A DNA stretch of 45,799 bases from an aff. Roholtiella sp. LEGE 12411. GTDB lineage: Bacteria; Cyanobacteriota; Cyanobacteriia; Cyanobacteriales; Nostocaceae. The stretch is taken from assembly GCF_015206995.1 (NCBI RefSeq), contig NZ_JADEXR010000039.1, positions 1 to 45,799 on the forward strand, given 5' to 3'. Both the position numbers and the translations under genes were made by a program. The notes beneath the pieces are model-generated. The model was given only the letters and a program-made list of their open reading frames with translations. It searched no databases and was not told where the DNA came from. Below, one piece after another: positions 15,667 to 41,205 of this stretch (the stretch's first letter is position 1; every line of letters starts with the position of its first letter).

Positions 15667-18522
15667 CTACGCCATTTGCCGAGCCATTAACTGGGCAAAT
15701 AAACCTTCAACAGCAGCTAGTTCCTGAAAAGTTCCCTGTTGTACAACCCTCCCAGCCTCGAATACGTAGATGCGGTGAGCGTTACGGATGGTACTTAGTC
15801 TATGGGCGATCGCTATTCTGGTAACTTGTAATTTATCTAAACTTTCACTAACAATCGCCTGAGTTCGATTATCTAGCGCACTAGTAGCCTCATCGAATAA
15901 TAAAATTCGGGGTTTTAATGCCAAAGCGCGAGCAATCAGCAGTCGCTGGCGTTGTCCCCCAGAAATATTTCCCCCGCCTTCACTAACTACGGTGTGCATT
16001 TGCATGGGCATGGCAGTGATATCATCAGCAAAACCGGCAGAACGAGATGCTTCCCAGGCCTCTTCTAGGGTAATCTGTGCGCCTGCGGCTATATTCTCGA
16101 AGATGGAAGCTGAAGTCAATTGGCTATTTTGTAAAACCACGCCAAATTGTCGGCGGACTGCATCCACATCTAATCCAGATAGGTCTTGACCATCGTAGTA
16201 AATTGCACCTGATTCTGGAGTCTCAAAGCCTAACAGCAACCTTAACATAGTCGATTTACCGCTACCCGAACTACCAACTAGGGCAATAAATTCTCCTGGT
16301 TCTGCATAGAGACTAATATCATCCAGTGTGATTTGTCCATCTTGACGGTAGCGGAAAGTAACATGGTCTACAACAATTCGCCCTTGGAGTTTGCCAGGAT
16401 CAGCTTTGCTAAGGTTGACTTCTGGGATGCTGGCTAAAATTGGCTGGGTACGTTTCCACTGGGGGATGACTTGTAAAACTTCGGTAACTGTGTTGCTGAG
16501 GTTTGTAGCGCCTTGAATAAAACTACCAAAAGCCGCATTGAAGGCTAAAAAAGTACCCAATGATAAGCCGATAGTCCCTGCACTTTTGGAATCTTCCAGT
16601 AGTTGACTCGTAAACCAGAATAGTACTCCATTGGTAAGTAACGGCATCACTGCGTTAAACAGTGCGACAGCATCTTCTACTTGTTGTGTCTTTAATTCCA
16701 GCTTGATTTGTTGACTGTAGTTTTTACTCCAAAAGGCAAAAGCCCGTTCCTGTGCGCCTGCGATATGCAGTTTAGAAATACCGTTGATTAGCTGTACTGT
16801 CTGTCCAAAAATATTTCCCCTCACTTCCAGTAGGGGGCGTACCTGACGCAGCAGCAGCAACCCAGAAATTGTGGTAACGGCGATCGCAATTATTGCCACG
16901 GCAACGGCAACTAAGGCGAGTTTGGAATTGTAGTAAAATAATTGACCAAGATAAAACAGTGTAAACAAACTGCTGAATAAATTGATCAGGGTTCTACCAC
17001 CCAACTGGCGGCGAATTGCACTCACGGAAGTCACACGAGAAAGTAAGTCTCCTGTGGTGTATTGACGGAAAAATGATACTGGTAAATTCAGCAGTCTGTC
17101 CCAGGTTGCAGCTTGGGTAGAAGCATCGCCAGCACTTTCTATCCGCAGCAACGCAAACCCCTGGGTTATCTGAAATAAACCTGTACCGCCAGCTGCAACC
17201 AGTAGCCCTAAGCCAATTTGCATTAATAAGCCGCGATCGCTATCTGGTATAGCATTGTCCATGATCATCGCCGTGGCTTGGGGGGTAAACATTCCTAACA
17301 ATGTCACCGCAATACCCGTAAACAAAATTGTCAATACATCCTTAGCCCGTCCTTTCAGGGCAAATTGGACTAAAGTTAAAGCTTTAAATGCCTGTTCGGG
17401 CAAAGACCGATAAAACATATAAGCTATGGGAGAGACGGTTGAGGCTATGCGCTCATCCACTTGCACACGCGTCTGTGCCACTGGGTCGAATATTTCATAA
17501 GCAGTAGCAGAAACTGGTAGTAGTGCTACTGGTTGATTGTCTTGAGTGTAAGCGATCAAAGACCCGCAATCCTTCTCCCACCAATTATCTCGCAACAGCA
17601 CTTGCCGCATCCGAATTCGGGAGGCGCGGACAATGGCTTCCAATGGTTCTTTGACTCGCTTGAGATTTTCCGAACGCGCCGGCGGACGAATTTTTACTCC
17701 CATAGTTCGGCCCACTGCACCAGCCGCTACTAGTAAAGGCGTACCATCTTGGAAAACATCGATCGCTTGCTGATTCAGGGTTGATGCTAGTTCGCCGAGA
17801 GCCTCCACTGTAACTTGACGGTTGAGATTTTGGCGATCGCGCCAGCGAATTAGTTCTGCTGCCGTTTCTTGCTGGTCTAAAATATCAATACAGTGTAAAA
17901 TTTGAATATTAAACTGGGATATTCCTCTGCAAATAATATCTGCGTTGTCAAGATCACAAGTAGTAATAGTGGCAAATTGCACAGTATCTACAGCTTCTAG
18001 CCAGATTTGATCGCTGACTGGGAAAGTAGCTGTGGAACTACTTAGGGTAACTTGCTCAAACCCCAGAAAGTTAAGAGTTCCCGCTTTGATTTGTAACCAA
18101 CTGACAACACCGGCTTCCGGTTGACAAGTTTGACCATTGGAGAGGGAAAATCTTCCACTTGCGCCTGTTTTAATTTGAATTGCAGGGGTGGGGACTTGGG
18201 AGAATGTACTACTAACTTGCCTGACCCAAGATTCTACCAAAGCGTTAGTAATTACATCACCGAAAGATTCTCGATGTAGCTGTAGCAACTCTGTCGCACC
18301 TATTGGCACTGCTAAAATCTGACGAACAGAACTAGCATCTGTCCCAAACAGTGCTTCACCTGGATGTATACTACACAGATAACGGCGAGTACCTGCAATC
18401 ACCCCATTGCACAGTGTGACTGCAAACAATGCCACAGAGCCAGACTGAACCACCCAAACCCGAAAAGGGTCATTTAAAAGTATTGGTTCATTACCGTTAA
18501 CTTGGTAGAGTTGCCCACCCAT
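15667..18522 (-). CDS. NHLM-type ABC transporter, ATP-binding protein without peptidase
   Basis: About 951 residues. Residues 1-350 form a soluble region with a cyclic-nucleotide-binding-like pattern and no C39 peptidase. Then come six membrane spans (about 390-650) with FFRQYTTGDLLSRV, and a C-terminal ATPase: Walker A LVGSSGSGKSTML, signature ISGGQRQRLL, Walker B ILLFDEATSALD, and IAHRLSTI. This is the organisation of the second ABC protein of NHLM peptide-export systems, which pairs with a peptidase-bearing ABC protein and an HlyD partner, both just upstream. ATG at 18522 follows GAGGGAA at good spacing; the frame is open nine codons further. Substrates are expected to be the leader-processed peptides of this island. 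Confidence 0.9.
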   Translation of the reverse strand: MGGQLYQVNGNEPILLNDPFRVWVVQSGSVALFAVTLCNGVIAGTRRYLCSIHPGEALFGTDASSVRQILAVPIGATELLQLHRESFGDVITNALVESWVRQVSSTFSQVPTPAIQIKTGASGRFSLSNGQTCQPEAGVVSWLQIKAGTLNFLGFEQVTLSSSTATFPVSDQIWLEAVDTVQFATITTCDLDNADIICRGISQFNIQILHCIDILDQQETAAELIRWRDRQNLNRQVTVEALGELASTLNQQAIDVFQDGTPLLVAAGAVGRTMGVKIRPPARSENLKRVKEPLEAIVRASRIRMRQVLLRDNWWEKDCGSLIAYTQDNQPVALLPVSATAYEIFDPVAQTRVQVDERIASTVSPIAYMFYRSLPEQAFKALTLVQFALKGRAKDVLTILFTGIAVTLLGMFTPQATAMIMDNAIPDSDRGLLMQIGLGLLVAAGGTGLFQITQGFALLRIESAGDASTQAATWDRLLNLPVSFFRQYTTGDLLSRVTSVSAIRRQLGGRTLINLFSSLFTLFYLGQLFYYNSKLALVAVAVAIIAIAVTTISGLLLLRQVRPLLEVRGNIFGQTVQLINGISKLHIAGAQERAFAFWSKNYSQQIKLELKTQQVEDAVALFNAVMPLLTNGVLFWFTSQLLEDSKSAGTIGLSLGTFLAFNAAFGSFIQGATNLSNTVTEVLQVIPQWKRTQPILASIPEVNLSKADPGKLQGRIVVDHVTFRYRQDGQITLDDISLYAEPGEFIALVGSSGSGKSTMLRLLLGFETPESGAIYYDGQDLSGLDVDAVRRQFGVVLQNSQLTSASIFENIAAGAQITLEEAWEASRSAGFADDITAMPMQMHTVVSEGGGNISGGQRQRLLIARALALKPRILLFDEATSALDNRTQAIVSESLDKLQVTRIAIAHRLSTIRNAHRIYVFEAGRVVQQGTFQELAAVEGLFAQLMARQMA

Positions 18523-18614
18523 CGTTCCCTCACTCTGATTAAAAATCAAAAATAGTTATTTGGAATTGTGAATTATAAAAAGGCGTTGCACAAACAAAGT
18601 TACCCAGAACCCTT

Positions 18615-18665
18615 GTAGAGACGTAGCACTGCTACGTCTCTACGTCTCTACTGCTACGTCTCTAC
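18615..18665. repeat. GTAGAGACGTAGC hairpin plus partial tandem copies
   Basis: GTAGAGACGTAGC (18615-18627), ACT loop and complement (18631-18643), then two further partial copies of the right arm (GTCTCTAC and TGCTACGTCTCTAC) to 18665. It is the same family as the 3745-3787 hairpin and lies between the two ABC genes, where it could weaken read-through or stabilise the upstream message. Confidence 0.7.
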
Positions 18666-18761: not shown

Positions 18762-21002
18762 CTATAAAATCGCCTCCCCTTCTGTCCGAATTAACCGCGA
18801 GTAAGCCCCCTCAATCTGCCACAATTGTTGATGAGTACCGCGTTGTACCACCTTTCCGCGCTCTAAAACAATGATTTCATCGCAGTCACGGATAGTACTT
18901 AAACGGTGTGCCACAATAATACAAGTGCAACCCCGCCGCCGCAGATTCTCATCAATGATTTTCTCCGTCTCTGCGTCTAAGGCACTAGTAGCTTCATCCA
19001 TTACCAGGATTGAGGGGTTGTTCACCAAAGCACGAGCAATTTCTAACCTTTGTCGCTGTCCGCCGCTTAAATTGGCTGCACCCTCGATTAATTCGGCATC
19101 AAAACCTCCAGACATAGAAAGAACGACATCTTCAATAGCTGCATCTTTACAAGCTTTCATCAAGCTATTGTCTGGGACGGTAGAATCCCAAAGGGTTAAA
19201 TTGTCTCTCACCGTTCCGCCAAATAGCAGGATATCTTGCTCTACCATAGCGACAGAGTTGGTCAGCAAATGCTGGGGAATCTGTTCTCTAGATGTACCAT
19301 CAAACAGAATTTCCCCCGTCCATGGTTGGTAGAGTCCACTAATGAGTTTGGCGATGGTAGACTTACCAGAACCACTCCCACCTACCAAAGCAACTCGCTG
19401 TCCTGGCTTAATAGATAGGTGAAAGTTTTCTATCAGTGGAGATTCTAGGCGACTGTAGCCAAAGGTAATATCTCGCAATTCCACATACCCCTGCAATTTG
19501 CATTGAGAATTGGGGGTTGGGAAAGAATCCTTTTCTCCATTTCCCCTAATCTCCTCAATCGGGTGGTTTAGTACATCATCCAAGCGGACTAAATTACCTT
19601 CCAACTCTTGCAGAGTTGTCCCGAAGTTGACAAGATTGTTGACTGGTTCTTGAAAACTGTGGGTTAAAGCTTGAAAGGCTATTAACATACCGATACTCAG
19701 ATGTCCATCCATCACCCGCAATCCACCAACTACTAATAACAACATTGAGGAAACGGCTGATAAAAGTACGGGTAAGACAGAAAATATTTGGTTTGTTGTC
19801 CCCAGTTCCTGCTGGGAATTAATTGCTTTGGTATAATAACCAGACCAGCGAGCAAAGAAATCTGATTCTAAACCAGATGCTTTGATAGTTTCTATACTTT
19901 GCAAAGCACCTATAGAAACACCAGCAGCTTTACCATATTCCTGCATGAGTCGCTGATTCGCATCGACGCGCTGGCGGGAAATTGACTGTAGGGTGAGGAC
20001 GTTGATGGCAGCAAAAATCACCATGATTAAGGTTAGTACCCAGTCATATTGCACCATGACTAAGGCATAAAAAATTACCATGATGGCATCAATGATCGTA
20101 GTTGCCAATTTTCCTGAAAGCACATTAGCAACTTCGTCATTGAGATGAGTGCGATCGCTAATTTCTCCAGCAAAGCGTTGGGCGTAGAAACTCGCAGGTA
20201 GGCGGAGAATATGCCAGAGAAAGCGGCTAGACATCCCAATAGCCAGCTTAATCTTCAGCCGTCGCAGATACTTTAACCGCAGTAATGTGAGCGCTCCTTG
20301 GAGTACAGTTGTAATTGCCATTACTAACAGCAACGGACGTAACCATTGCTGCCTTTGCTGCACTAGAATATCATCTACAAACACCTGGGTTAACACTGGC
20401 ACTGCCAATCCGACCAGTGTTAAGAGAAAACCCGCAATTAGACAGTAAACTAAAGCACCAAAAGCTCCTCGCAACCGTTCCCACAGAGATACAGCAATAC
20501 TAGTTTTGCGTCCACCTTTGACGAACTCTTTACCGGGTTCCATGACTAGAACTACCCCAGTGTACCCCTCGTCAAATTCTTGGTGTGACACGGTACGCGG
20601 CCCAGTTCCAGGGTCATTGAGATAAACTCGTTTTTTGCCAAATCCTTCTACAACGATGAAGTGGTTGAAATGCCAAAAAACAATATAGGGAGGGCGCAAG
20701 GCTTGTAACTGCTTGAGTTCCCTTTTCAAGCCTTTACCTTCGAGTCCGTACCTTCTGGCTGCTTTGATCATATTGGATGCTTTGCTGCCATCGCGGGAGA
20801 CACCACACTCTCGACGCAGTTCAGTTAAGGGTACAATGCGATCGTAGTAACCAAGAATAATCCCCAAAGCCGCTGCACCGCATTCCACAGCTTCCATTTG
20901 CAAAACCGTGGGCGTTTTAAATCGGATATCCCTACTAGGCAGTAGTTTTACTAAGTACTGCCAAGCAGAAATCGGTGTTGCTAAGGTAAAATCAATAGAC
21001 AC
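18762..21002 (-). CDS. NHLM-type ABC transporter with C39 leader peptidase
   Basis: A 746-residue bifunctional maturation/export protein. Residues about 28-160 are a C39 cysteine peptidase: Cys41 in QMEAVECGAAALG, His114 in FNHFIVVEG and Asp130 in LNDPGTG form the expected catalytic set. This domain cuts leaders after Gly-Gly or Gly-Ala. A six-span membrane domain (about 175-450) follows, then the ATPase with Walker A LVGGSGSGKST, signature LSGGQRQRLE and Walker B LVMDEATSALD. Its start overlaps the HlyD gene end by 11 bases, so the two are translationally coupled. All three intact precursors in the window end their leaders in AGG, matching this specificity; it is the only C39 protein here. 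Confidence 0.95.
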   Translation of the reverse strand: MSIDFTLATPISAWQYLVKLLPSRDIRFKTPTVLQMEAVECGAAALGIILGYYDRIVPLTELRRECGVSRDGSKASNMIKAARRYGLEGKGLKRELKQLQALRPPYIVFWHFNHFIVVEGFGKKRVYLNDPGTGPRTVSHQEFDEGYTGVVLVMEPGKEFVKGGRKTSIAVSLWERLRGAFGALVYCLIAGFLLTLVGLAVPVLTQVFVDDILVQQRQQWLRPLLLVMAITTVLQGALTLLRLKYLRRLKIKLAIGMSSRFLWHILRLPASFYAQRFAGEISDRTHLNDEVANVLSGKLATTIIDAIMVIFYALVMVQYDWVLTLIMVIFAAINVLTLQSISRQRVDANQRLMQEYGKAAGVSIGALQSIETIKASGLESDFFARWSGYYTKAINSQQELGTTNQIFSVLPVLLSAVSSMLLLVVGGLRVMDGHLSIGMLIAFQALTHSFQEPVNNLVNFGTTLQELEGNLVRLDDVLNHPIEEIRGNGEKDSFPTPNSQCKLQGYVELRDITFGYSRLESPLIENFHLSIKPGQRVALVGGSGSGKSTIAKLISGLYQPWTGEILFDGTSREQIPQHLLTNSVAMVEQDILLFGGTVRDNLTLWDSTVPDNSLMKACKDAAIEDVVLSMSGGFDAELIEGAANLSGGQRQRLEIARALVNNPSILVMDEATSALDAETEKIIDENLRRRGCTCIIVAHRLSTIRDCDEIIVLERGKVVQRGTHQQLWQIEGAYSRLIRTEGEAIL

Positions 21003-22608
21003 CAGTAAAAGACCTCAGAATAGGAAAGACATAGGTGATGGGAGCGCGTTCTTCCACCTTGACCCGCACAACGGTAGTAGTTCCAGAAGAGATTTCCATT
21101 CGGGGGCCAGTGGAAGAAGACCACTTGTAGCCGCTAAAAGTTTGAGAATCTAGTTCTAGGTCAGCGTATACTTGGATAACTCCGTCTTGCTTATCGGATA
21201 CCAAGCCTGATACTAGTTCTGCATTACCCACAACGCTAGCAGCAGCCTCTTTAGTGGTAGGAAATCCAGAGACGCTAGTTGTAGTACCGACAATGCCGCC
21301 AAAGCGTTCCCGTTTGACCGTTTGCGGGGTAACTTGCAGGCTCATCCCCGTTTGAATCTTCTTTCCTTCAGCCACTGGAAAATAGGTGATGCTAACTAAC
21401 TTTCCGGCTGAATTTTCCGCATCGATATTCCCTAAGCGGATACCGGCGTTGATTACTTGTCCAGGAGTCACAGTTATTTCCAGAATTCTTCCTGAATATG
21501 GACTGATAATCTCACTGTTATTGCTAAGTTCTAGTTGTAGTCTGGCAATTTCTCGTTTCACTTCTTGAATTTCGTTTTTTCTGCCAGTTGAATCTTGCAA
21601 GTTTTGTTTAGCAAGATTTGCTTCTCGGCTATCCAAATCTTTTAAGCTAGCACGCTGTTGGGAAATTTCATTCAGGTTTTTCAGATAAGATTCTTGAGCA
21701 TTAGTTTCTTCCACTTCTAGTTTTGTTAATTCAGCAATATTGGTCGCGATTTCATTTTGAGTATTGATATATCTTTCTTGTGTATCGCTGTCTTTGACTT
21801 TTAGTTCTTTACGCTCAGTTTCTAATTGAGCAATTTCCTCAACTTTTTTGAAATATTCATTTTGAAAATCATAAAATTGGTATTGTGTAATTACTTTTTC
21901 TTGTAATAAACCTTTATAAGCTTCTACTTTTTCTTTGAGAACTTTCAATTGAGCTTGAGCCGCTTGAATACGTTTAGTCAGACTTTGAGATTGCTGAGTG
22001 AGCGATTCTTGACTTCTTTGTTTGAGTACAGGAGTTAAAGCTTGCAATTCTCTAATTCTTTGCTGAACTTGCAGGCGTTGTTTTTGAATTGATTCTTGAC
22101 TTCTTTTCCTGAGTACAGGAGTCAAAGCTTGTAGCTCTTGTATGCGTGTAATAGCATTTTGGCGTTGTTGCTGAATAGTATTTTTCTCACTCGCGCTTCC
22201 CTGCCCTTGAAGTAAGCTGACTGCTTGGTCTTGTGTCGTCAGTTCTGTAAATTTAGTCTGCTGTTGTTGCAGTTGCTTGCGGAGTTGCGCTTGGTCAAGG
22301 GTTCCTAGTATTTGTCCTTTTTTAACTACATCCCCAACTTTAATATTGAGAGCAACTAACTGTCCTGAACTTTTTGATTCTAAGGGTACAACTTTCCGCG
22401 GAAAAATGAGTACCCCTTTACCCTCAATAGTCATGGGGATGCGTCCATAAATACTCCAAACCAGACCGATGACGACAAAAGAACCCATAGCAACTAAAGG
22501 TAGCCAGCTTCTGGGGCTGACTACCTGCATGAGTTGGTCTAGTCTTTCAGGAGAAGATAGACGTTCTACGGATTCTTTGCGGAAAAGGGCGCGTTTTTGG
22601 TCTAACAT
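20992..22608 (-). CDS. HlyD-family adaptor of the NHLM exporter
   Basis: A 538-residue membrane-fusion (periplasmic adaptor) protein. A short cytoplasmic N-terminus (MLDQKRALFRKESVERL) is followed by one membrane span near residues 35-55, a half lipoyl domain (VALNIKVGDVVKKGQILGTLD), a very long coiled coil (about 110-360, rich in Q/E/K/L with two internal LQALTPVL repeats) and the second half (IISPYSGRILEITVTPGQVI). It links the ABC proteins to an outer-membrane channel, which is not encoded in this window. The opening motif KRALFRKESVERLSSPERLD is typical of NHLM-associated HlyD proteins. A decayed fragment of a paralogue lies at 34642-34803. Confidence 0.93.
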   Translation of the reverse strand: MLDQKRALFRKESVERLSSPERLDQLMQVVSPRSWLPLVAMGSFVVIGLVWSIYGRIPMTIEGKGVLIFPRKVVPLESKSSGQLVALNIKVGDVVKKGQILGTLDQAQLRKQLQQQQTKFTELTTQDQAVSLLQGQGSASEKNTIQQQRQNAITRIQELQALTPVLRKRSQESIQKQRLQVQQRIRELQALTPVLKQRSQESLTQQSQSLTKRIQAAQAQLKVLKEKVEAYKGLLQEKVITQYQFYDFQNEYFKKVEEIAQLETERKELKVKDSDTQERYINTQNEIATNIAELTKLEVEETNAQESYLKNLNEISQQRASLKDLDSREANLAKQNLQDSTGRKNEIQEVKREIARLQLELSNNSEIISPYSGRILEITVTPGQVINAGIRLGNIDAENSAGKLVSITYFPVAEGKKIQTGMSLQVTPQTVKRERFGGIVGTTTSVSGFPTTKEAAASVVGNAELVSGLVSDKQDGVIQVYADLELDSQTFSGYKWSSSTGPRMEISSGTTTVVRVKVEERAPITYVFPILRSFTGVY

Positions 22609-30935: not shown

Positions 30936-30960
30936 AACCTTATATTAAGAATACAACCCC

Positions 30961-31742: not shown

Positions 31743-31748
31743 AACATT

Positions 31749-32030: not shown

Positions 32031-32033
32031 GCA

Positions 32034-33693: not shown

Positions 33694-33789
33694 TATTTAC
33701 TCCTTATCTGTTGGCTAAACTCAGTTTTACTAGAGTCAAGAAACTCAAATCGTTATCTGCATTAATTAAGAAAAACCTAATTTTGACTA

Positions 33790-33900: not shown

Positions 33901-33974
33901 TAGTTTGCTGGAAAACCTCTTTTGAACACAATGCACAATTTTTAGGTAAGACTATGATTTTTTTAGTTAAAACT
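33893..33974 (-). promoter_or_regulatory. Repeat element A and -10 box, branch 1 peptide
   Basis: TTTTTAGGTAAGACT (33939-33953) and TTTTTAGTTAAAACT (33960-33974) are 15-base direct repeats at exactly 21-base spacing. ATGCAC lies on the gene side and TATAGT (33893-33898) further on. It could also serve the plus-strand 58-codon gene at 34118. Confidence 0.65.
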
Positions 33975-34117
33975 CATCGACTTTTTCTCTTCACAAAAAA
34001 ACGGTTATGTAATTAGATATCAAAATATGAATTGTCTAATTAAAATTATTGTCGATAGCATGATTTTGCAATTTTATCAATATATAAGTCCTAGGAGCAA
34101 AATCAATAGTAATAGTT

Positions 34118-34294
34118 ATGAATAAGCCAATTCCTGAGAAATTATCTAGCCAAATCGATGCAGGGGTTAAACTTGCTATTGCTAAAGCTATCGAAAGACA
34201 CCGCCGTTTAGGAGAATCTATTAGTATTTGGCAAGATGGTCAAGTTGTTACATTAACCGCCGAACAAATTCCTCCTCTCAAATCAGATGACTAG
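34118..34294 (+). CDS. small protein of 58 residues, unknown
   Basis: Starts MNKPIPEKLSSQIDAGVKLA and ends VVTLTAEQIPPLKSDD. It looks like a small soluble, partly helical protein with a basic middle (KAIERHRRLGESISIWQDG). I do not recognise the family. Support for a real gene: an intact frame of natural composition, AGGAG about 20 bases upstream, and a truncated near-identical copy with the same upstream bases at 41456-41503. It lies divergent from the branch 1 peptide and downstream of repeat element A. Antitoxin-like size and placement are suggestive only. Confidence 0.55.
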   Translation: MNKPIPEKLSSQIDAGVKLAIAKAIERHRRLGESISIWQDGQVVTLTAEQIPPLKSDD

Positions 34295-34341
34295 AAATAG
34301 GAGGGGTGATCTTCCTAAAAGACCTCTTAAATCCACTACTG

Positions 34342-34523
34342 AATGGCACTAAGAAAAGCCCAAAGGCTTGTGTCGTCTCGTTCCCAGCCTGGGGGCTGGG
34401 AATGTGTTTAAAGAGGCTCTGCCTCTTGTCAAGCTAGTGGAGGCGGAGCCTCCCAGAATGGTTTCCCAGCCCCCAGGCTGGGAACCAGTCAGAGCAAGGG
34501 CTGTATCTTTTCTTAGTGCCATT
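34342..34523. mobile_element. 182-bp MITE-like element, copy 1
   Basis: Ends are 17-base inverted repeats, AATGGCACTAAGAAAAG and its complement. Inside are strong palindromes: GTTCCCAGCC/GGCTGGGAA, GAGGCTCTGCCTC and AGGCGGAGCCT. The flanks carry a direct repeat, TTAAATCCACTACT, at 34327-34340 and 34522-34535, which looks like a target-site duplication of about 12-14 bases. The element has no transposase. The copy at 44749-44930 is the same length and differs at only about two positions, so both moved recently. Confidence 0.85.
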
Positions 34524-34561
34524 AAATCCACTACTCCAAACAACTTCCATCATCATCTCCT

Positions 34562-34660
34562 AGTAAATCAGCGATCGCACCATAAAAAACGAGATACAAA
34601 TCCTATCTCTTGGTGTAACTTTGCCGCATAATGGCGATCGCTTTTCTTGTTCTAGTCTTT
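34562..34660 (-). pseudogene. relic of cNMP gene (copy 4)
   Basis: Nearly the same as 31906-31990: minus-strand AKLHQEIGFVSRF-like reading and the flanking GCGATCGC sites, matching AKLQQDVGFSSRF of the intact protein. It leads directly into the HlyD fragment. Confidence 0.7.
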
Positions 34661-34803
34661 GTCCTTGTAGTGAACCCACCGCTTGGTGTTGTGACTCTAG
34701 TTGCGTGAGTTTCGCTTGTTGCTGTTGTGGTTGCTTGCGGAGTTCAGCTTGGTCAATAGTTGCGAGTACTTGCCCTTTTTTGATGACACCCCCAACTTTT
34801 TTT
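34642..34803 (-). pseudogene. fragment of an NHLM HlyD gene
   Basis: The minus strand encodes VGGVIKKGQVLATIDQAELR, then KQPQQQQAKLTQLESQHQAV and GSLQGQ. These match VGDVVKKGQILGTLDQAQLR, KQLQQQQTKFTELTTQDQAV and SLLQGQG of the intact HlyD (20992-22608). Only about 50 codons of the lipoyl/coiled-coil junction survive, with no start and no membrane segment. It is more diverged than a recent duplication, so it comes from an older second exporter. Confidence 0.82.
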
Positions 34804-34933
34804 TAGATTTTTTATCAAGTTTTACAAAAGACATGACGTAAAACAGCTTTGACATTTTATATTAAAATTAGAAAATATAGATACAGCTACTTTGACAAAA
34901 TTTAGTCCTCCAGCGAATAACAGCACATCCACT

Positions 34934-36082
34934 ATGAAAGAGATCATCGCTGGCAACCTGATTCGCTACCGCAAAAGTCTAGGCTTGTCTCAAGAGCAAC
35001 TTGCTGCAACTACTGGCGTAACTCGCCAGAGCATCAATAACTACGAGAACGCCAAAACTTTACCAGACAGCAAAATCCTCTCTGCTCTGGCGAATGTTTT
35101 GGGCATTACACTCGATGACTTGCTACGCTCACAAGGTGAAGGACTACCCAACTTCCGGTTCCGCGCTCATGTAACATTGGACACGGCAGTTGCTACAACT
35201 TTGGGAACTAAAGCAACGCACTGCCTCAAAAATGCCCAGTTTGCAGCCCACGTGCTACGAATGCTGCAAACTTATAACGCTCTAGAACAAGCCATTGGCT
35301 TACCAAGCTACACGCCAGAAAGTACACCTTGCCATCAAATAGAAGGCAATGAAAAGCACATTCAGACAATAGCTGCTTTGTTTCGTCATCGCCTGGGCTT
35401 GGGAGATGCTCCCATTGCCAACCTGTTTCAGTCTGTAGAAGAAATCGGTTTAAAAGTTTTACGCTCCTCCATTCCCATTAAAGATTTCTTTGGTTTGAGT
35501 GCTTGTAGTGATGTTGAAGGTGCTTTTGTCTTGGTAAATACCCATAACATCACCATTGAACGTCAATTGTTTACCCTTGCACATGAAATTGCACATCTAA
35601 TCTTTCACCGTGTAGAGTATCAAGACACTCTAATTGAAGAAGGAATTTCATCTGAAGAAAAAGCACGAGAAAAAGTGGCTGATTACTTTGCCAGTCACCT
35701 ACTTGTTCCCCAAGCTGAATTTGAGCGGATCTACACACTTACCAAAGATATTGTCAAACTGAAACGGCATTTTCGAGTGAGTTACCTAGTCATTTTGAAT
35801 CGTTTAGCAGAAATGGGAATCATTGATTTTGCTAAAGAGAAAGCCAAAATATGTGCAATTTATAAAAAGCAACATGATGGTGCATCTTTGCAAAATTTTA
35901 TGGAATTACCACCAGCACTGATTGCAGAGGATTATCTAGAAAATGAACGTTATGAATTTCTAATTTGGCAGTCCTTAAAATTTGGCAAGATTTCCGAGAT
36001 GAAAGCGGCAGAACTTCTCAATTTAACTGTTGAAAAACTGCGGGTGCGTCGTCAAGAAAATGAGGTTTATGCAGTCGCTTAA
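34934..36082 (+). CDS. XRE-type regulator with ImmA/IrrE metallopeptidase domain
   Basis: 382 residues. Residues about 4-66 are a helix-turn-helix of the XRE family (NLIRYRKSLGLSQEQLAATTGVTRQSINNYENAKTLPDSKILSALANVLGITLDDLL). Residues about 140-270 are an ImmA/IrrE zinc peptidase: TLAHEIAHLIFH carries H217-E-x2-H221, and EEKAREKVADYFASHLLVP holds the downstream Glu. Such proteins cleave partner repressors or act as antitoxin/stress regulators. No partner gene overlaps it. A TTG at 34892 would add 14 residues; neither start has a clear ribosome-binding site. It could control the island, but no evidence ties it to the repeat elements. Confidence 0.88.
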   Translation: MKEIIAGNLIRYRKSLGLSQEQLAATTGVTRQSINNYENAKTLPDSKILSALANVLGITLDDLLRSQGEGLPNFRFRAHVTLDTAVATTLGTKATHCLKNAQFAAHVLRMLQTYNALEQAIGLPSYTPESTPCHQIEGNEKHIQTIAALFRHRLGLGDAPIANLFQSVEEIGLKVLRSSIPIKDFFGLSACSDVEGAFVLVNTHNITIERQLFTLAHEIAHLIFHRVEYQDTLIEEGISSEEKAREKVADYFASHLLVPQAEFERIYTLTKDIVKLKRHFRVSYLVILNRLAEMGIIDFAKEKAKICAIYKKQHDGASLQNFMELPPALIAEDYLENERYEFLIWQSLKFGKISEMKAAELLNLTVEKLRVRRQENEVYAVA

Positions 36083-36192
36083 CGGAACAATTCTTGACGC
36101 AACTGCACTCATTGATTTTCGCTGATACCTTAATCAAGGAGCGGTGTAAATACATTTCTCCCAGAGTTTTGGCAGATTGGACAACAAGTTTA

Positions 36193-36300
36193 CACAGCGA
36201 TCGCCACACCATCATTTAACTCATCGTCATATTCCGCACTCTCACCTAACAGAGAATTACTTGTAGTCTATGAAAAATTAAAAGCGATCGCACGGTCAAA
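36193..36300 (-). pseudogene. relic of cNMP-gene 3' end (copy 5)
   Basis: Minus-strand EYDDELND...GVAIA with a deletion of about 15 bases in the middle, then AISHRL-like bases to the GCGATCGC at 36284. Adjacent to repeat element B, the same arrangement as at 33790-33974. Confidence 0.65.
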
Positions 36301-36308
36301 CTGCCATT

Positions 36309-36358
36309 GAACACAATGCACAATTTTTAGGTAAGACTATAATTTTTTTAGTTAAAAT
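36309..36358. promoter_or_regulatory. Repeat element B
   Basis: TTTTTAG at 36324 and 36345 (21 bases apart) with AACACAATGCAC on the left, almost identical to element A. It lies 67 bases before the antitoxin gene; the text 36370-36415 also repeats 34000-34030. Confidence 0.6.
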
Positions 36359-36424
36359 TAATCGACCTTATATGTTAACCAATAAATGGTTATATAATTA
36401 GATATCACAATATGAATGCTATAA

Positions 36425-36685
36425 ATGAAAATGGAACGTGAAGCAGTCACAATCCGGTTTCCTATTCCTTTATTAAACAAAGCAAAACATCTTAAAGATG
36501 GCTCAGAGTCATTCAATGAGCTAGTAGTTGAAGCAGTAGAACGAGAGGTTAAACGACGACAGGCTATTGCTACTCATCAGAGCATCGTAGCCAGACGTGC
36601 CAAGATCAAGGCTAGAACTGGCGTACACCCAGACGTGAATGTTCTCATCCATAGCCTCAGAGAAGGGGATATGCGAAGTGAATAA
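36425..36685 (+). CDS. putative antitoxin of a VapBC-like pair
   Basis: 86 residues beginning MKMEREAVTIRFPIPLLNKAKHLKDGSESFNELVVEAVEREVKRRQA. The N-terminal strand-helix-helix pattern fits a ribbon-helix-helix DNA-binding antitoxin, and the C-terminal basic/helical part would contact the toxin. Its last codons overlap the start of the PIN-domain gene by 8 bases (GTGAATAA), the usual antitoxin-first arrangement. ATG at 36431 is an alternative start. Such pairs normally autorepress their promoter. Confidence 0.75.
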   Translation: MKMEREAVTIRFPIPLLNKAKHLKDGSESFNELVVEAVEREVKRRQAIATHQSIVARRAKIKARTGVHPDVNVLIHSLREGDMRSE

Positions 36686-37106
36686 AGTCCTATGCCTGGA
36701 TACAAGCGTTCTTATTGCCTATCTTGTGCCTGATGAAAATGAACCATTAGCAGATAATCTGGTGCTGGAAGCAGTTGTGGGACATACACGTTTAGTTATT
36801 CCCAGCTTTGCTTGGGCAGAAGTAGGCTCAGTATTACGTAAAAAAGTCAGGATGGGTTTACTGACAATAGAAGAAGCAGAAGGCTGTTATCAAGATTTTT
36901 GCAATCTACCCATAGATTACATTAATGAGCAGTTACTCAGAGTCAGAGCTTGGGAAATTGCAGAGCAATATCAACTACCAACACTCTATGATGCTGCATT
37001 TTTAGCTTGTGCTGAGGGCGAACAAGCACAGTTCTGGACGGCTGACAAGGTGCTATTAAATAAACTATTGCCACTGCCAGCTTATGTCAATCAGCTAGGA
37101 GTCTAG
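36678..37106 (+). CDS. PIN-domain toxin (VapC-like)
   Basis: 142 residues from the GTG at 36678. VNKVLCLDTSVLIAYLVPDENEP carries the first PIN Asp; a Glu lies in PSFAWAEVGSVLRKK; and PTLYDAAFLACAEGEQAQFWTADKVLLN holds the further acidic residues (YDAAFLACA and TADKVL). PIN toxins are Mg-dependent ribonucleases that cut RNA, often tRNA. The upstream extension to 36639 is rejected because GTG 36678 overlaps the antitoxin stop and gives the standard PIN N-terminus. Placement inside the RiPP island suggests a stabilising cassette. Confidence 0.88.
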   Translation: MNKVLCLDTSVLIAYLVPDENEPLADNLVLEAVVGHTRLVIPSFAWAEVGSVLRKKVRMGLLTIEEAEGCYQDFCNLPIDYINEQLLRVRAWEIAEQYQLPTLYDAAFLACAEGEQAQFWTADKVLLNKLLPLPAYVNQLGV

Positions 37107-37170
37107 CAAGTACCAATATTGCCAGTTATATCAAGTAGTGGGCTGCCATAACCAGCGATTCAACCTACTT

Positions 37171-37788
37171 TTAATACTCTCCTAAAGCAGCGTGAAAAAC
37201 TTGTTCAGCAGTTAAATTTAGTTCTGGAAAAGTGAGTGATTGAATGCGGTCATTTCCCCGAAACTGAGTGATTTGATACTCACCCTCAACTAAAATATAA
37301 ACTGAGATTACAGGCTGTTTAGGATTTCCAATAAACCGCTTTCCGCCAAAAGCAGCATAGTCAACAATCCAATATTCGGGAATCCCAATTTCCTCGTATT
37401 CAGCAAATTTCAGGAAATAATCATCCCGCCAATTTGTACTGACAACCTCTATTGCTAATGGAATTGATTTTGCTTGAGTAACTGTTGATGATTTTTTCCA
37501 AAATTGTTCATTGACCAAGTTAGGAAGATTCAATACTAATACATCTGGAATATAACCAGATTTCTGATCAACTGATTTGACTAATGCTTGATTAGGAATC
37601 GAATAAGCTAAATTAAATCTACGAATCTCAAAATTGAGTTCTCTAATCAAAAATGCTCTGACTAACTCATGTTCCCCCGTCGGCTGCATTTCGAGTATGA
37701 TTCCTTTATGTAATTCATATCGACCATTTTCTGGTTGACATTCGATGAATTCTTCAAATTTTATCCGTTCTACTAAAGGTTGAAACAT
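37171..37788 (-). CDS. Uma2-family (DUF820) putative nuclease
   Basis: 205 residues from ATG 37788, preceded by GAAGGAAA. Seen: RIKFEEFIECQPENGRYELHKGIILEMQPTGEHE, SGYIPDVLVL, IPLAIEVVSTNWRDDYFLKFAEYEEIGIPEYWIVDYAAFGGKRF and LTAEQVF. Putative PD-(D/E)xK residues are Glu in YELHKG, Asp in IPDV and Glu-x-Val in AIEVVS. It belongs to the same family as the protein at 30086 but a different subgroup. Role unknown; isolated, with relic DNA on its upstream side. Confidence 0.9.
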   Translation of the reverse strand: MFQPLVERIKFEEFIECQPENGRYELHKGIILEMQPTGEHELVRAFLIRELNFEIRRFNLAYSIPNQALVKSVDQKSGYIPDVLVLNLPNLVNEQFWKKSSTVTQAKSIPLAIEVVSTNWRDDYFLKFAEYEEIGIPEYWIVDYAAFGGKRFIGNPKQPVISVYILVEGEYQITQFRGNDRIQSLTFPELNLTAEQVFHAALGEY

Positions 37789-37896
37789 AATGCTGTTTCC
37801 TTCAATACTTGAATCATACTTCAAAGCTGATACTATATTTTTGTAACGCTCTTCTGTTATTTTACGTTCCTAATGAGGTGCTAGAAGCGATCGCCT

Positions 37897-38110
37897 TTAG
37901 GCATTTTTGCAGGGTAGCCGGCGCTTTAACTTTTTGCTGAATCTGAAGCGGTTCGTTTAAAACATAAAAGGTTTTCGGCTCTAACCCAAGTGTATTGCTC
38001 CATAACCAGCAATTTAACTTACTTTTAACCTCTCCAGCATCCAATCAAATCTTTTACCTGCGATCGCAATACCATATCAAACGCTATCATGCAACTCATC
38101 CTCATAATCT
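37897..38110. repeat. Direct repeat copy 1, includes cNMP-gene tail
   Basis: From TTAGGCATTTTTGC on, about 210 bases match 42261-42473 at roughly 90 percent by eye. In the other copy the right part is the 3' end of the intact cNMP gene; here the corresponding minus-strand reading is EDELHDSV...GIAIAGKRFDWML-like with frame damage. A minus-strand frame in the left part (DAGEVKSKLN...LGLEPKTFYVLNEPLQ) is open in both copies but is probably non-coding repeat. Confidence 0.75.
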
Positions 38111-38185
38111 TTAGCCAACGATAGACCTTGACAATTATGCCGTGCTGTACTGTCAGTAGTATGTAAAAATTATTTTGATGGTTGG

Positions 38186-38210
38186 AGAGACGCGATAAAT
38201 CGCAGTCTCT
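38186..38210. repeat. Degenerate AGAGACGCGAT hairpin
   Basis: AGAGACGCGAT pairs with ATCGC-A-GTCTCT across an AA loop, with one bulged base. It is a common cyanobacterial dispersed palindrome type. The rest of 38111-38351 has no gene. Confidence 0.55.
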
Positions 38211-38351
38211 ACAGCAAATCTATTCGTCAATTATTTATTGACACACTATTAGCTAGATTTTGCACAACCTTGTCGATAACCATCGAGCGTCGTCTAAAGA
38301 TGTTTACTGTATAACTCAGTTATTGTTAGACATAACATCTTGTTTTTAAAT

Positions 38352-39236
38352 TTAGTTCAATAATTTACCAGTACCTCTGGTTTCATCAACAGAATTTAAA
38401 TAAGGAAACCAGCGTTTTTTAACAAAATTCACCATCGATTCATGTTCGATTGGCACAGTCCAAATACCATTAAGAATATTAGCCTCGTATTGACGTTTAG
38501 CAGCTTCAGCGTATAGAGAAATGATCCGCCCCATTTTCTGCAAATCCTTCCTGACAAAACTACAGGTATACCTGATAGTATCTGAAGTAAGGCGATGGTT
38601 AATCACCCATCCTACTACCTGTCCTTGGTAACGCAAACCCAAACTGTTTAAAGGTTCTAAATTATTTTCGTATTGAAAGGGAATCAAGTCTTCAGGAATC
38701 CACGCTTGAGTCTCTTGTTGCTTTTGGATAGTTTGTCGTTCTTGAGCGGTAATTTCCACCCAAGGAAATATGTTATACGCAGAAGGAAGGCGGCTGTATT
38801 TGTGTATCCAAGTTGCTTCCAGAACTGTCTGTACACTACCTTTGCACAGCAGCATTCGGGTTTTCGGAGTTGTCCAGTTGCATTTGTAGAGCAGACGCTC
38901 TAAAGCAGGTGTTGTAGGCTTGCTAGTAGTGTATATCATCTCAATTTTTGTACACCCTCTTTTACCTACTTCTGTTTCTAAACGGGTAAGTAAAGCTGTT
39001 CCAATTCCAGCACTACGATGTGTTGCTTCAACAAATATGGAGTGAACCTGCGCCAATTGATCATCTTGATGAATTCCAGCTAGAACTAAACCAAGTGGTT
39101 TATCTAGATCAGAAGCTGCGATCGCAATAACAGATTTTTCTATTTCTATATTTTGCAACACATACCGGAAAGCAGGAAAGGTAAACCTTTCATAGTTAGC
39201 TGCTGTTGAATCTTGTAAAATATTGACGGTGTACAT
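38352..39236 (-). CDS. tandem GNAT-fold acyltransferase, radical SAM branch 2
   Basis: 294 residues, collinear over its whole length with the GNAT protein at 22803-23687 (shared LGLRYQ-x-VVGWVINHR, SFVRKDLQKMGRIISLYAEA, NGIWTVP-EHESMV). The acyl-CoA loop reads R74-SAGIG-T and the N-terminal GNAT unit is followed by a second degenerate one. GAGGTGG precedes the ATG. It follows the branch 2 radical SAM gene by 245 bases that contain a hairpin and its own repeat element G. The branch 2 core begins with Lys, the only Lys in it, so acylation there is possible. That is inference; a leader-processing or immunity role is not excluded. Confidence 0.85.
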   Translation of the reverse strand: MYTVNILQDSTAANYERFTFPAFRYVLQNIEIEKSVIAIAASDLDKPLGLVLAGIHQDDQLAQVHSIFVEATHRSAGIGTALLTRLETEVGKRGCTKIEMIYTTSKPTTPALERLLYKCNWTTPKTRMLLCKGSVQTVLEATWIHKYSRLPSAYNIFPWVEITAQERQTIQKQQETQAWIPEDLIPFQYENNLEPLNSLGLRYQGQVVGWVINHRLTSDTIRYTCSFVRKDLQKMGRIISLYAEAAKRQYEANILNGIWTVPIEHESMVNFVKKRWFPYLNSVDETRGTGKLLN

Positions 39237-39260
39237 TTTCCACCTCTTCAGTTTTTTTTG

Positions 39261-39310
39261 AAGTCAATTAGCATTTTAGATTTAAACTCACATTTTTTTA
39301 GTTTTTGCTT
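39261..39310 (-). promoter_or_regulatory. Repeat element G, second GNAT gene
   Basis: TTTTAGATTTAAACT (39274) and TTTTTAGTTTTTGCT (39295) at about 21-22 bases, immediately upstream (about 40 bases) of the GNAT start. The T-rich strand is plus, as in elements A, D, E and F. Confidence 0.55.
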
Positions 39311-39383
39311 ATTACTTATAAATTTTATGGTGCGCTAAATGGCATAGGACTTAGACAAGGGTCAGATTTTTTTCGTAAAAGTT

Positions 39384-39421
39384 GTCAAGAGTCCAAAAAA
39401 CTTTGATTATTGACTCTTGAC
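39384..39421. terminator. Hairpin between radical SAM and GNAT genes
   Basis: GTCAAGAGTC (39384-39393) and GACTCTTGAC (39412-39421), perfect 10-base arms, 18-base loop. Likely separates the branch 2 maturase transcript from the GNAT gene. Confidence 0.55.
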
Positions 39422-39481
39422 TCTTTAACAGAAGGTATGTGTGCCAGTTGCATAAATCCTGACCATGACTGCTATTCTTGG

Positions 39482-40543
39482 CTAGAGAGCAAGTGCTTTT
39501 GTTTGCAAATTAGTCGCTATTTCATCACTTGTTGGCAGAGAAACGAGAGGACAACCTAACACATCAGGATCAAGGGTTTGAATTCCACGAACCCAAGGAG
39601 CAAAACGACCTGGTATGAGATCAAGCCGACCATCTGGCCGTAAAGTGCCAATATTGTTGCGTTCATCCGAAAGGGCTACTGTGCATTTCCCAACAGAACC
39701 GTTGGCACGAATTACTAAAGAGTTGGGGCGTGAGGCATAACAAACATAGTCGTCTGGAACGCTAACATTCTCTGGTGCTTGCAAATTCTTACCAAACAAC
39801 TTTGCTTCGAGAGTTTTGATAGCTGCCTCTTTTTCAGTCTCTGAAAAAATTCTGATTGCAGCATCATTAGGACTACCGAGATGCTCAATAGATTTGAAGT
39901 AAACAGAAAACCTGGAATCAGGCAAAAATTCTTTTTTTATATCCTCTAACAGTGGGTCAATTAGTTGGAATGTCTCTACAGTGAAATGCAAACGTAGGTT
40001 TATATCAATTGGTAATGAACTATCTCGAATTGCCAATAAATTAGTCCAAATACGTTCAAATGTACTTTTTCCATCGGCACGAATACGACTTTGATCATGA
40101 ACTTCTCTAGGGCCATCAAGAGAAATTTGATATTGTGTCACTCCCACATTGGCTAACGCAGAAGCTGTATTGAGATCCAATAAGTAACCATTTGTGGTCA
40201 TGCTACCTGAATAATGGAGATGGGCATACTTGGATGCCAGAGACAGGGCATATTCAGAAATATCTAATACAATATTTTTGGCAACAAGTGGCTCTCCACC
40301 AAACCAAGATAGATTTAAATAACTTAAATTTGGGCATCGTTTATCAAGGATAGCTTTAATACCTGCTATCGTCTCTGGCTGCATCCGCCCTATTGAAAAA
40401 TCTTCATAGCAGTAGATACAACGAAAGTTACACTGCTCTGTTGGTAAGATGATTAATTCTAGCAACTTGTCGGATATTAATCGCGCACGCCTGAGACGAT
40501 CAGTATCAATAGCATTAGCTTCGTGCAAAACTGTTACAGTCAT
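39482..40543 (-). CDS. radical SAM peptide maturase with half-SPASM C-terminus, branch 2
   Basis: About 353 residues, closely related along its length to the protein at 32034-33083. The cluster motif is QCNFRCIYCYEDF (C-x3-C-x2-C); FGGEPL, TTNGYLLDLNTA and ISLDGPREVHDQSR follow. The C-terminal cluster region has CYASRPNSLVIRANGSVGKC (C-x13-G-x4-C) and one Cys in GCPLVSLP, again three Cys only. ATG 40543 is preceded by GGAGAGG; the frame is open to 40630 but that part has no family character. The peptide gene is 467 bases upstream on the same strand. Expected to install a radical-derived crosslink on that peptide; chemistry unknown. Confidence 0.9.
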   Translation of the reverse strand: MTVTVLHEANAIDTDRLRRARLISDKLLELIILPTEQCNFRCIYCYEDFSIGRMQPETIAGIKAILDKRCPNLSYLNLSWFGGEPLVAKNIVLDISEYALSLASKYAHLHYSGSMTTNGYLLDLNTASALANVGVTQYQISLDGPREVHDQSRIRADGKSTFERIWTNLLAIRDSSLPIDINLRLHFTVETFQLIDPLLEDIKKEFLPDSRFSVYFKSIEHLGSPNDAAIRIFSETEKEAAIKTLEAKLFGKNLQAPENVSVPDDYVCYASRPNSLVIRANGSVGKCTVALSDERNNIGTLRPDGRLDLIPGRFAPWVRGIQTLDPDVLGCPLVSLPTSDEIATNLQTKALAL

Positions 40544-41010
40544 AATAAAAACCTCTCCACTCCAGAAAGTATTCTTTATAGCAACTTGAGTTATTATTTG
40601 GAACTTTAGCGATGCTGGACTAGCTTTCAAGCAAATAATACTATAGGATTACTATTTGATTTTTGAACAACAGAAAGTGGACTGACCAAACCAATTTAGT
40701 GCATAAATATAATCATTGTGGAGTGGGCTTCTAGCCCGCTCAGAATAGGCAAGATGCCTGTTCCACAAAAAAAGCATAATGCAACATTTTAGCCTGGTCA
40801 TGCCACTAAAAATACTTAACTTTTTTCAGAAATCACACCTGATTCCTATAGATATAGGAATCCTATTTGATTTTTGAACAACTAATCTGCCTAAAAGCTT
40901 GACATACAAAACTTTTCTTCTGAATATACTAAGGAAGATTCAAGTAAGATTCCCATCGCACAACTCAGCAATTCTGCTAAAATCCAACTTTCAATAGGGT
41001 TTGAGACGCG
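40544..41010. other. Intergenic region with repeats, branch 2
   Basis: 467 bases without a gene. TTGTGGA (40716-40722) and TCCACAA (40762-40768) bound a 53-base palindromic element with inner stems GCGGGCTAGAAGCCC-type and AGGCAAGATGCCT, a common cyanobacterial interspersed repeat. A 26-base direct repeat (core CTATTTGATTTTTGAACAAC) at 40646-40671 and 40857-40882 flanks it. Confidence 0.65.
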
Positions 41011-41205
41011 CTAACCCTGGCAATTCTGATTAGTACTATTACACCTTCTATTCTTACCACCAGCAATCCGCTCAAGTTCTTCAGGACTTAACTCTTGAAG
41101 TAAATCTGCTAATTGAGGATCTGTAACCACTAATTCTCCACTTTCATTGATTTCGAGATAGTCACTAGCCTGTTTAGGATTTTGGTTTTCGTTTGGCGTA
41201 GACAT
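41011..41205 (-). CDS. RiPP precursor, Lys-led Cys/Asn core, radical SAM branch 2
   Basis: 64 residues from ATG 41205, with TAGGAG at good spacing (nine more codons are open upstream). Leader: MSTPNENQNPKQASDYLEI, NESGELVVTDPQLADLL, then QELSPEELERIAGG. Core: KNRRCNSTNQNCQG, with Cys at 5 and 12, four Asn and a single Lys at position 1. The leader is clearly homologous to that of the 33481-33693 peptide; the cores are unrelated apart from Cys and Asn content. A -10-like TATAGT (41308-41313) and repeat element D precede it. Probably processed by its neighbour radical SAM enzyme and the C39 exporter. Confidence 0.88.
   Translation of the reverse strand: MSTPNENQNPKQASDYLEINESGELVVTDPQLADLLQELSPEELERIAGGKNRRCNSTNQNCQG

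Follow-up and report, generated by a model that had tools for sequence, protein, structure and literature searches.

A candidate fusion of two cyanobacterial RiPP clusters around one hybrid NHLM exporter in aff. Roholtiella sp. LEGE 12411

How did a single exporter come to stand among three peptide-modifying chemistries? The question is raised by a cluster for ribosomally synthesized and post-translationally modified peptides (RiPPs) in the cyanobacterium aff. Roholtiella sp. LEGE 12411. The window that we analyzed, 45,799 nucleotides, is the complete contig C195 of a draft genome (G000; 6.58 Mb, 338 contigs, 99.54% complete, 0.02% contaminated). A first-pass annotation had found in it one NHLM exporter, one lanthipeptide synthetase (LanM), two half-SPASM radical S-adenosylmethionine (rSAM) enzymes, two GNATs, two oxygenase-type enzymes, and three precursors with leaders ending in [IV]AGG. 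We checked the genes it named as long open reading frames (ORFs) and by hidden Markov model (HMM) matches, and its gene content and coordinates were confirmed throughout; the three leaders read AVAGG, AIAGG, and RIAGG. Its interpretation found partial support, and the Asn-x-x-Cys (NxxC) motif, the Lys1 acylation logic, and the fusion fossils described below are absent from it. Our preferred reading, to which we give a probability of about 0.6, is that the island arose when two RiPP clusters that already existed in Nostocaceae were joined around a single hybrid NHLM exporter.

Parent clusters and exporter lineages

The exporter, the genes shared with rSAM clusters, and the putative relics are as follows (trees with their two support values; relatives by genome, G, or locus, L).

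15667 to 18549, minus strand: NHLM_ABC2 permease/ATPase, rSAM-cluster lineage (TIGR03797, 1039.5 bits, cut-off 709.4; tree with G078/G102, 97/96)
18762 to 21002, minus strand: NHLM_ABC1, C39 peptidase-permease-ATPase, rSAM-cluster lineage (TIGR03796, 1198.9, cut-off 853.3; PF03412, 4e-34)
20992 to 22608, minus strand: HlyD adaptor, 538 amino acids, long middle of LanM-cluster type (TIGR03794, 428.2, cut-off 156.2)
33783 to 33890, minus strand: relic of the cNMP_ocin 3' end, upstream of precursor B (sequence similarity)
34599 to 34799, minus strand: fossil fragment of a lost rSAM-type HlyD (34635 to 34799 is 94.5% identical to residues 90-144 of the G183 HlyD and 62% to the window HlyD)
37897 to 38143, minus strand: direct-repeat copy of the cNMP_ocin 3' end (87% identical to 42261-42513 over 253 columns)
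42378 to 43472, minus strand: cNMP_ocin, bacteriocin-type transport-associated (TIGR03896, 400.1 bits, cut-off 161), in many rSAM clusters
43510 to 44670, minus strand: DUF7005 protein (PF22541), in many rSAM clusters
44963 to 45751, minus strand: ParA/MinD-like ATPase, in many rSAM clusters

ABC1 with its C39 domain, ABC2, and HlyD all exceed the curated cut-offs, which makes them an NHLM exporter, and ABC1 gave the sole C39 match among the proteins scanned; its peptidase should cleave after Gly-Gly (GG). With TIGR03794, TIGR03796, TIGR03797, and TIGR03896 all above cut-off, the window resembles other NHLM bacteriocin export clusters but differs from them in the two origins of its subunits. 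Its ABC1 and ABC2 are 84% and 80% identical to those of the rSAM cluster in G078 (Amazonocrinis), and 72-73% and 64-66% identical to those of the LanM clusters in G205, G213, and G022a. HlyD groups with these three LanM clusters (100/100) and is as long as in G205 and G213, the rSAM type having 481-485 amino acids; its residues ~121-360 are clearly of LanM type, and both of its ends are slightly closer to the rSAM type. Judged by these identities and trees, the exporter is a hybrid, with ABC1 and ABC2 from one parent cluster (I) and HlyD, at least its middle, from another (II), and the fragment at 34635-34799 is the lost adaptor of parent I. Parent I would also have supplied the ParA-DUF7005-cNMP_ocin genes and the precursor-rSAM cassettes, and parent II the LanM, the Nif11 precursor, the oxygenases, and the GNATs.

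We searched 216 genomes of the family in two sets for the rSAM enzymes (E up to 1e-30), which were present in 11/145 (G000 included) and 8/71; GNATs were present in 27/217 (G000 included; E up to 1e-25). Both occurred in the same genome in G000, G137, and G138 only, and on one contig only in G000, among the 216 genomes searched for both. A wider phylum sample of 386 genomes held the rSAM (E up to 1e-40) in three, G000, G102, and G114, all within the family. We read the neighborhood of every one of the 18 rSAM loci elsewhere in the family. NHLM exporter genes lay near the rSAM gene, within the stretch read, at 13 of them (the stretches of G047 and G183 end at a contig edge), and none was found in the stretches read of G114, G137, G076, G198, and G208, the rSAM genes of G137 and G076 being fragments. 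None of the 18 stretches contained a GNAT match (E 1e-5); the G124 locus has a LanM ~14 kb away. The full parent I order, ParA-DUF7005-cNMP-precursor-rSAM-HlyD-ABC1-ABC2, was present in G078, G138, G211, G102, G124, G160, and G183 (where the contig end interrupts ABC1); G115, G177, and G200 lacked DUF7005, and the arrangement was a different one in G050 and G172. The parent II order, LanM-Nif11-(AspH)-(OX)-GNAT-HlyD-ABC1-ABC2, stands alone in G205, G213, and G022a, and the three nearest LanM-GNAT loci carry their own exporters. The first-pass annotation had treated the three chemistries as one pathway and had proposed this neighborhood search as its check; a single conserved three-chemistry pathway is rejected, since the parents stand apart in relatives.

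The same separation would be expected if the window merely held neighboring clusters, its exporter serving one branch while the others used a second NHLM exporter or stayed inside. The genome does carry a second NHLM ABC1/ABC2/HlyD set, on contig C74 (L130:73-12670) with cNMP-like and ParA-like genes, so that the claim of one exporter with a single C39 holds within the window and fails for the genome. This second set counts against a fusion, as does the support for grouping the window ABC1 with G078/G102, which is 93/86 and below the starred level. However, the C74 locus has several GG precursors of its own in repeats and, by eye, no modifying enzyme, and the window exporter mixes the subunits of both parents, the rSAM branch having lost its own HlyD. 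We consider separate clusters unlikely; shared export, as had been proposed from the layout, is supported by the presence of a single exporter beside three GG leaders in the window and by the mixed parentage of its subunits.

A misjoin of two clusters during assembly is very improbable. The genome is a draft, and the hybrid HlyD could have been joined wrongly at a conserved stretch, but the only other ABC1 over cut-off, that of C74, sits at a distinct locus together with an ABC2 and an HlyD of its own, and we therefore see no ABC1 left stranded by a misjoin. The completeness and contamination given above also speak against a misjoin, and the fossils and cNMP_ocin repeats within the contig fit a stepwise history. 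Copies of the cNMP_ocin 3' end recur near 30.8, 31.8, 33.8, and 37.9-38.1 kb; because the last of these matches 42261-42513, the stretch with precursor C (PreC), its maturase rSAM_C, and GNAT_C lies between direct repeats. Comparable cNMP relics precede precursors in G200, G177, and G160, and we infer that a cassette was captured at the cNMP_ocin repeat. The island had been closed at 41205, the ATG of precursor C; the genes up to that point are as claimed, but the unit runs on to 45751.

Between the RiPP modules (30086-42181), among the cNMP 3' repeats, there are Uma2 genes, an HTH-M78 gene, and a PIN gene, together with an XisH/XisI-like pair and a MazF-like pair (both by eye); several of all these genes are on the opposite strand. 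Palindromes at 34338-34523 and 44745-44930, 10.4 kb apart and 98% identical, with arms of ~84 nt and a 14 nt spacer, resemble miniature inverted-repeat transposable elements. Beside the exporter, a 155-amino-acid frame (15191-15658) matches positions 86-229 of 232 of PF02522, the aminoglycoside 3-N-acetyltransferase family, and is probably a fragment.

The radical-SAM branches and the N-x-x-C motif

32034 to 33098, minus strand: rSAM_B maturase, three-Cys half-SPASM (PF04055; best PDB sequence match 5wgg)
33481 to 33693, minus strand: precursor B (PreB), core NGNCGNCNCGRLAEDTLE (leader HMM; NxxC)
39482 to 40630, minus strand: rSAM_C maturase (PF04055; 85% identical to that of G047, Rhizonema)
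41011 to 41232, minus strand: precursor C, ATG at 41205, core KNRRCNSTNQNCQG with Lys1 and two NxxC units (leader HMM; NxxC)

In both maturases only ~40-70 residues precede the CxxxCxxC motif, and the C-terminal cysteines, C-x13-G-x4-C plus one Cys-Pro, are invariant in eight aligned proteins. A full SPASM domain binds two auxiliary clusters; just three invariant C-terminal Cys in these eight proteins indicate a twitch or half-SPASM domain, and the label half-SPASM was a fair one. TIGR04463/CteB-type maturases gave the best NCBIfam, PDB sequence, and Foldseek matches, but the window enzymes score 132-147 bits against a cut-off of 525, and they lack both the second SPASM half and an N-terminal part of the size of a RiPP recognition element (RRE). 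The nearest structure, by sequence for the rSAM and by fold for the relative L017, is 5wgg, which we take to be the thioether-forming maturase CteB. Leaders of the rSAM family share a segment like INENGELVVxDPQLAxAL.

Among 20 hand-chosen rSAM-linked cores, Asn stands three residues before 23 of the 42 Cys (shuffle mean 5.07, 0/10000 as high). No other offset from -6 to +6 was comparable, the next being -1 (p 0.016), and the next commonest residue at -3 was Asp (5 Cys). NxxC is present in 18/20 of these cores (shuffle mean 4.7); the cores are partly related, and counted by locus and kinship it is present in 10/12 groups (G198/G208 and G124/G160 excluded). By comparison, 0/14 GNAT-linked cores other than PreC contain it. 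We then tested plasmids after the hypothesis had been formed, reading 7 of 18 records from a protein search. Five loci (H1-H4 and H8, from Streptomyces, Sinorhizobium, Acetobacter, and Bradyrhizobium) yielded precursors, with NxxC in 6/6 (shuffle mean 1.15, last 35 residues); four of these had been annotated as small genes and lie upstream of rSAM, and two were unannotated ORFs picked by a leader-like motif. The leader profile scored four of the six (0, 0, 0, and 1 of 1000 shuffles as high), the exceptions being those of S. canus and Acetobacter.

Several points tell against an N-x-x-C rule. The 20 cores were picked from ORFs upstream of the rSAM gene; exact NxxC is absent from G200 and G114, and the count becomes 18/22 with the NHLP-like cores of G124 and G160 included; and no precursor was recognized beside the rSAM relatives in L018 (Mycobacterium), L019 (Micrarchaeota), or Deinococcus H5 and H6.

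Cys23 of streptococcal NxxcA is joined to the C-beta of Asn20 (PMC8326336, PMC13361665). By analogy, the enrichment points to Asn-Cys thioethers like those of this streptococcal NxxC peptide. The NxxC RaS-RiPPs/ranthipeptides (NxxcA-NxxcB, Streptococcus) share with the window an rSAM maturase and an Asn-x-x-Cys core, the likeness being one of core motif. NxxcA has one bridge, whereas several NxxC units per core are common in the window's rSAM family, which also differs in its three-Cys half-SPASM, the absence of an RRE-sized N terminus, its C39 export after GG, and its INExGE-type leader motif. The enzyme could use N-x-x-C to make a different product, either a sactionine-type alpha-thioether or an oxidized peptide that is not crosslinked. 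We give this a minor but real share of probability: Cys-to-Asn alpha-thioethers occur in thurincin H and ruminococcin C (PMC8172795), and TIGR04463, the nearest curated model, is matched far below cut-off. However, the sole upstream Asn-x-x-Cys enzyme that we found described makes a beta bond (PMC13361665, PMC8326336), and Asp as the second commonest residue at -3 fits C-beta-activated acceptors.

In five relatives (G050, G102, G124, G160, and L017) the precursors are of the Nif11 or, judged by eye, of an NHLP-like type, and no INENGE-type precursor was found among the ORFs of their stretches. The N termini of their rSAM proteins score 15.0, 16.7, 11.3, 3.4, and 9.3 bits, in that order, with the leader profile, and 0, 0, 0, 5, and 0 of 500 shuffles scored as high; none of the remaining 16 rSAM proteins, the window's two included, exceeded 0 bits. 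We read this N-terminal segment as a putative natural leader-maturase fusion in five relatives, one of them, G160, with a weak signal and another, L017 (rSAM at 4720-5787), a 5.9 kb contig. Because an unrelated 35-amino-acid ORF (G022b) reached 16.8 bits in a scan of 10,893 ORFs, the claim is founded on the rSAM set and the shuffles, not on that scan. Residues 1-42 of an L017 rSAM model have a pLDDT <50 and are uninformative on docking of the fused leader. No published report of a natural leader-maturase fusion was found among the titles and abstract starts searched, a limited test.

Other genes accompany the rSAM gene in relatives. An uncharacterized protein of 335-368 amino acids lies between rSAM and HlyD in G078, G138, G211, G124, G160, and G172, and those of G078 and G160, which were compared with Pfam, belong to no family there; in G183 this site is occupied by a 2-oxoglutarate (2OG) oxygenase (PF13640). 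For a 357-363-amino-acid protein beside rSAM in G050, G102, G160, and L017, a prenyltransferase identity suggested by resemblance was not confirmed by Pfam (4/4 proteins), NCBIfam (2/4), PHROGs (1/4), or PDB sequence searches (L017 alone and a four-protein alignment). The distant rSAM relatives in G198 (L113) and G208 (L115) have NGVC or NNC cores that lack GG, and the next gene is subtilase-like (by eye).

The GNATs and the lanthipeptide arm

22803 to 23687, minus strand: GNAT_A, probably NpuN-like (PF00583 in the N-terminal part; P-loop RGAGIG, H265)
23714 to 24409, minus strand: OX231, probable Fe(II)/2OG oxygenase (H116, D118, H199, and R213 invariant in 10 aligned homologues)
24434 to 24604, minus strand: relic of a second OX231 copy (tblastn, 40% over residues 174-230)
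24637 to 25233, minus strand: PF05118 hydroxylase (3e-50; best NCBIfam model OlsC, acyl 2-hydroxylase of ornithine lipids, 129 bits, cut-off 450)
25396 to 25689, minus strand: Nif11 lanthipeptide precursor, core QASGFTVCVATKKCWGSIC (TIGR03798)
26102 to 29524, minus strand: class II LanM with CCG motif (TIGR03897, 983.6, cut-off 304; tree with G205/G213/G022a, 100/100)
29524 to 29634, minus strand: possible relic of a second Nif11 leader (weak, E 0.001, interrupted by a stop)
38352 to 39236, minus strand: GNAT_C, beside rSAM_C (clade with GNAT_A, three LanM-cluster GNATs, and G137a; tree 98/91)

Both GNATs have 294 amino acids, a P-loop at residue 74, and H265, and Pfam detects just the N-terminal GNAT domain. 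In GNAT_A, H265 is as in NpuN and D183 compares with NpuN D182 (NpuN positions from PMC13060382). GNAT_A and GNAT_C are closer over the last 94 alignment columns (75-84%) than over the first 150 (48-58%). A recent local duplication was not shown; the two are in the same clade but are not sisters. The acceptor in selidamides is Lys or Orn. According to PMC13060382, NpuN acylates Lys1 of the nostolysamide core, for which Lys3 and Lys24 are no substitute, and the text of that source refers to further GNAT clusters in its Fig. S15, in which LanM is not always present.

We read 20 GNAT stretches, representing 21 of the 37 places outside the window; 8/20 had no GG precursor by pattern and were not counted. 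Lys1 was present in 9/15 GNAT-linked GG cores versus 2/25 other GG cores, from rSAM loci (Fisher p 0.0007), and Lys1 or Lys3 in 13/15 versus 3/25 (p 4e-6). Without the window rows and near-duplicates, the GNAT-linked counts were 6/11 and 10/11. Because Lys1 is present in PreC, whereas the Nif11 core contains no Lys outside positions 12-13 and PreB has none, GNAT_C most likely acylates, and would thereby lipidate, PreC. The closest relative of rSAM_C, in G047 (85%), has a core without Lys, and since <250 bases separate its rSAM and HlyD genes, no GNAT lies between them. A GNAT also occurs in another rSAM cluster: a row on plasmid pMHb of Mesorhizobium huakuii 7653R (L181:3963-8842), read after the Lys counts, combines a Nif11 precursor with a Lys1 core, an rSAM epimerase, a GNAT, and a second RiPP rSAM; among the loci searched, a GNAT together with an NxxC rSAM was found only in the window.

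The acylation logic has its weak points. The Lys3 class was defined after the data were seen, though NpuN rejects Lys3; the 25 control cores include PreB and exclude G198/G208; and the G114 core has Lys1 but no GNAT within the region fetched. At least one GNAT is without an obvious target, because GNAT_A has no Lys1/Lys3 substrate and PreB has no Lys.

LanM combines a dehydratase and a LanC cyclase in one protein (PF13575, PF05147, and TIGR03897 matched), and LCCG at residue 1055, where CCG is presumably the zinc motif that marks ProcM-like enzymes, supports the earlier label ProcM-like. The arm shares with the selidamides/nostolysamides (NpuA-NpuM-NpuN of Nostoc punctiforme; kamptornamide, phaeornamide) a ProcM-type LanM, a Nif11 leader, a C39 exporter, a GNAT with an N-terminal P-loop, and the residue pattern at the C-terminal end of the core. 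The claim of an undescribed pathway therefore fails for the LanM-GNAT arm, whose chemistry is known (PMC13060382). Unlike the selidamides/nostolysamides, the window has a lanthipeptide core with neither Lys1 nor the residues of the first ring, it includes two additional oxygenases, and its second GNAT sits by an rSAM whose precursor has Lys1. The core QASGFTVCVATKKCWGSIC begins with Q1 and can be aligned to the last 15 of the 25 residues in the G205 core (9/15 identical); it is without the Lys1-to-Cys5 part and Asp8 of the G205 and G213 cores, and Lys replaces their Ser18.

Such losses, together with the relics of OX231 and HlyD and possibly of a Nif11 leader, would also fit a decaying island, in which the rSAM branches alone are productive and the targets for tailoring are gone from the lanthipeptide arm, whose GNAT and oxygenases would be leftovers. 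That the Nif11 core has neither Asp nor Asn, so that the substrates of both oxygenases are uncertain, is a difficulty for a working fusion. Yet the reading frames of LanM, GNAT_A, AspH, OX231, and the two ABC genes are long and uninterrupted, and, counted from its C terminus, the core retains T12, C14, C20, S23, and C25 of the nostolysamide pattern (positions from PMC13060382). We regard decay as improbable and continue to favor the fusion.

OX231 itself had no Pfam match, and 9/10 aligned members of its family weakly match WelO5 (E down to 4e-6 with Pfam, and 0.0024 when a profile was searched against PDB). Halogenases have HxG where the OX231 family has HxD, which suggests a hydroxylase. OX231 matches PHROG 24927, of unknown function, at 4.9e-36, and no viral relatives were confirmed by an IMG/VR scan; a fold predicted from the single sequence (pLDDT 30) was useless. 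OX231-domain ORFs have 549-617 codons in 15/20 places, with an ATP-grasp-like N-terminal part (by eye, in those read), and in L157, L158, L160-L163, and L167 the domain is often C-terminal in a protein of ~560 amino acids. For the PF05118 protein, fatty acyl hydroxylation is as plausible as Asp hydroxylation because its best NCBIfam model is OlsC. Its relatives are found in 42/217 family genomes (E up to 1e-35), more than hold a GNAT, so it is not tied to GNAT clusters.

A proposed route and its significance

Gene content, two-parent ancestry, fossils, and motif enrichments can be read from the sequence; the chemical steps, the GNAT substrates, and the export of all three precursors are predictions. 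The INExGE[LV]VxxDP segment of leaders B and C would engage the rSAM enzymes, which have no RRE-sized domain. Each would then bond the sulfur of a Cys to the Asn at -3, with C-beta as the most likely site by analogy with NxxcA; PreC would gain up to two rings (N2-C5, N9-C12) and PreB up to two (N1-C4, N6-C9). GNAT_C would add a fatty acyl group to Lys1 of PreC, LanM would form (Me)Lan rings in the Nif11 core, and the shared C39 would cleave all three precursors past Gly-Gly during export. The product of branch C is probably a fatty-acylated, Asn-Cys-crosslinked peptide.

More tentatively, and with somewhat less than even confidence, we propose that an unrecognized multi-phylum family of N-x-x-C rSAM RiPPs, with its leader motif on the precursor or on the maturase, captured a selidamide GNAT here, and that a fatty-acylated peptide with Asn-Cys thioethers leaves through the same exporter as a lanthipeptide. 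Among the papers listed in a literature search, with most subscription journals outside it, no title or abstract start dealt with a cyanobacterial NxxC family or with a GNAT-acylated rSAM thioether peptide. The parts are of known kinds; what is new is the fusion, the NxxC family with its leader in cis or in trans, and the predicted lipidated NxxC peptide.

The island would illustrate how RiPP clusters merge, with subunits of two exporters combined, one adaptor fossilized, and a lipidating enzyme placed beside a radical branch. N-x-x-C offers a testable substrate rule for a maturase family found in cyanobacteria and on plasmids of Streptomyces and Alphaproteobacteria. If the leader-maturase fusions are true, they would be ready-made leader-independent crosslinking enzymes and would reveal the leader segment that an RRE-less rSAM reads.

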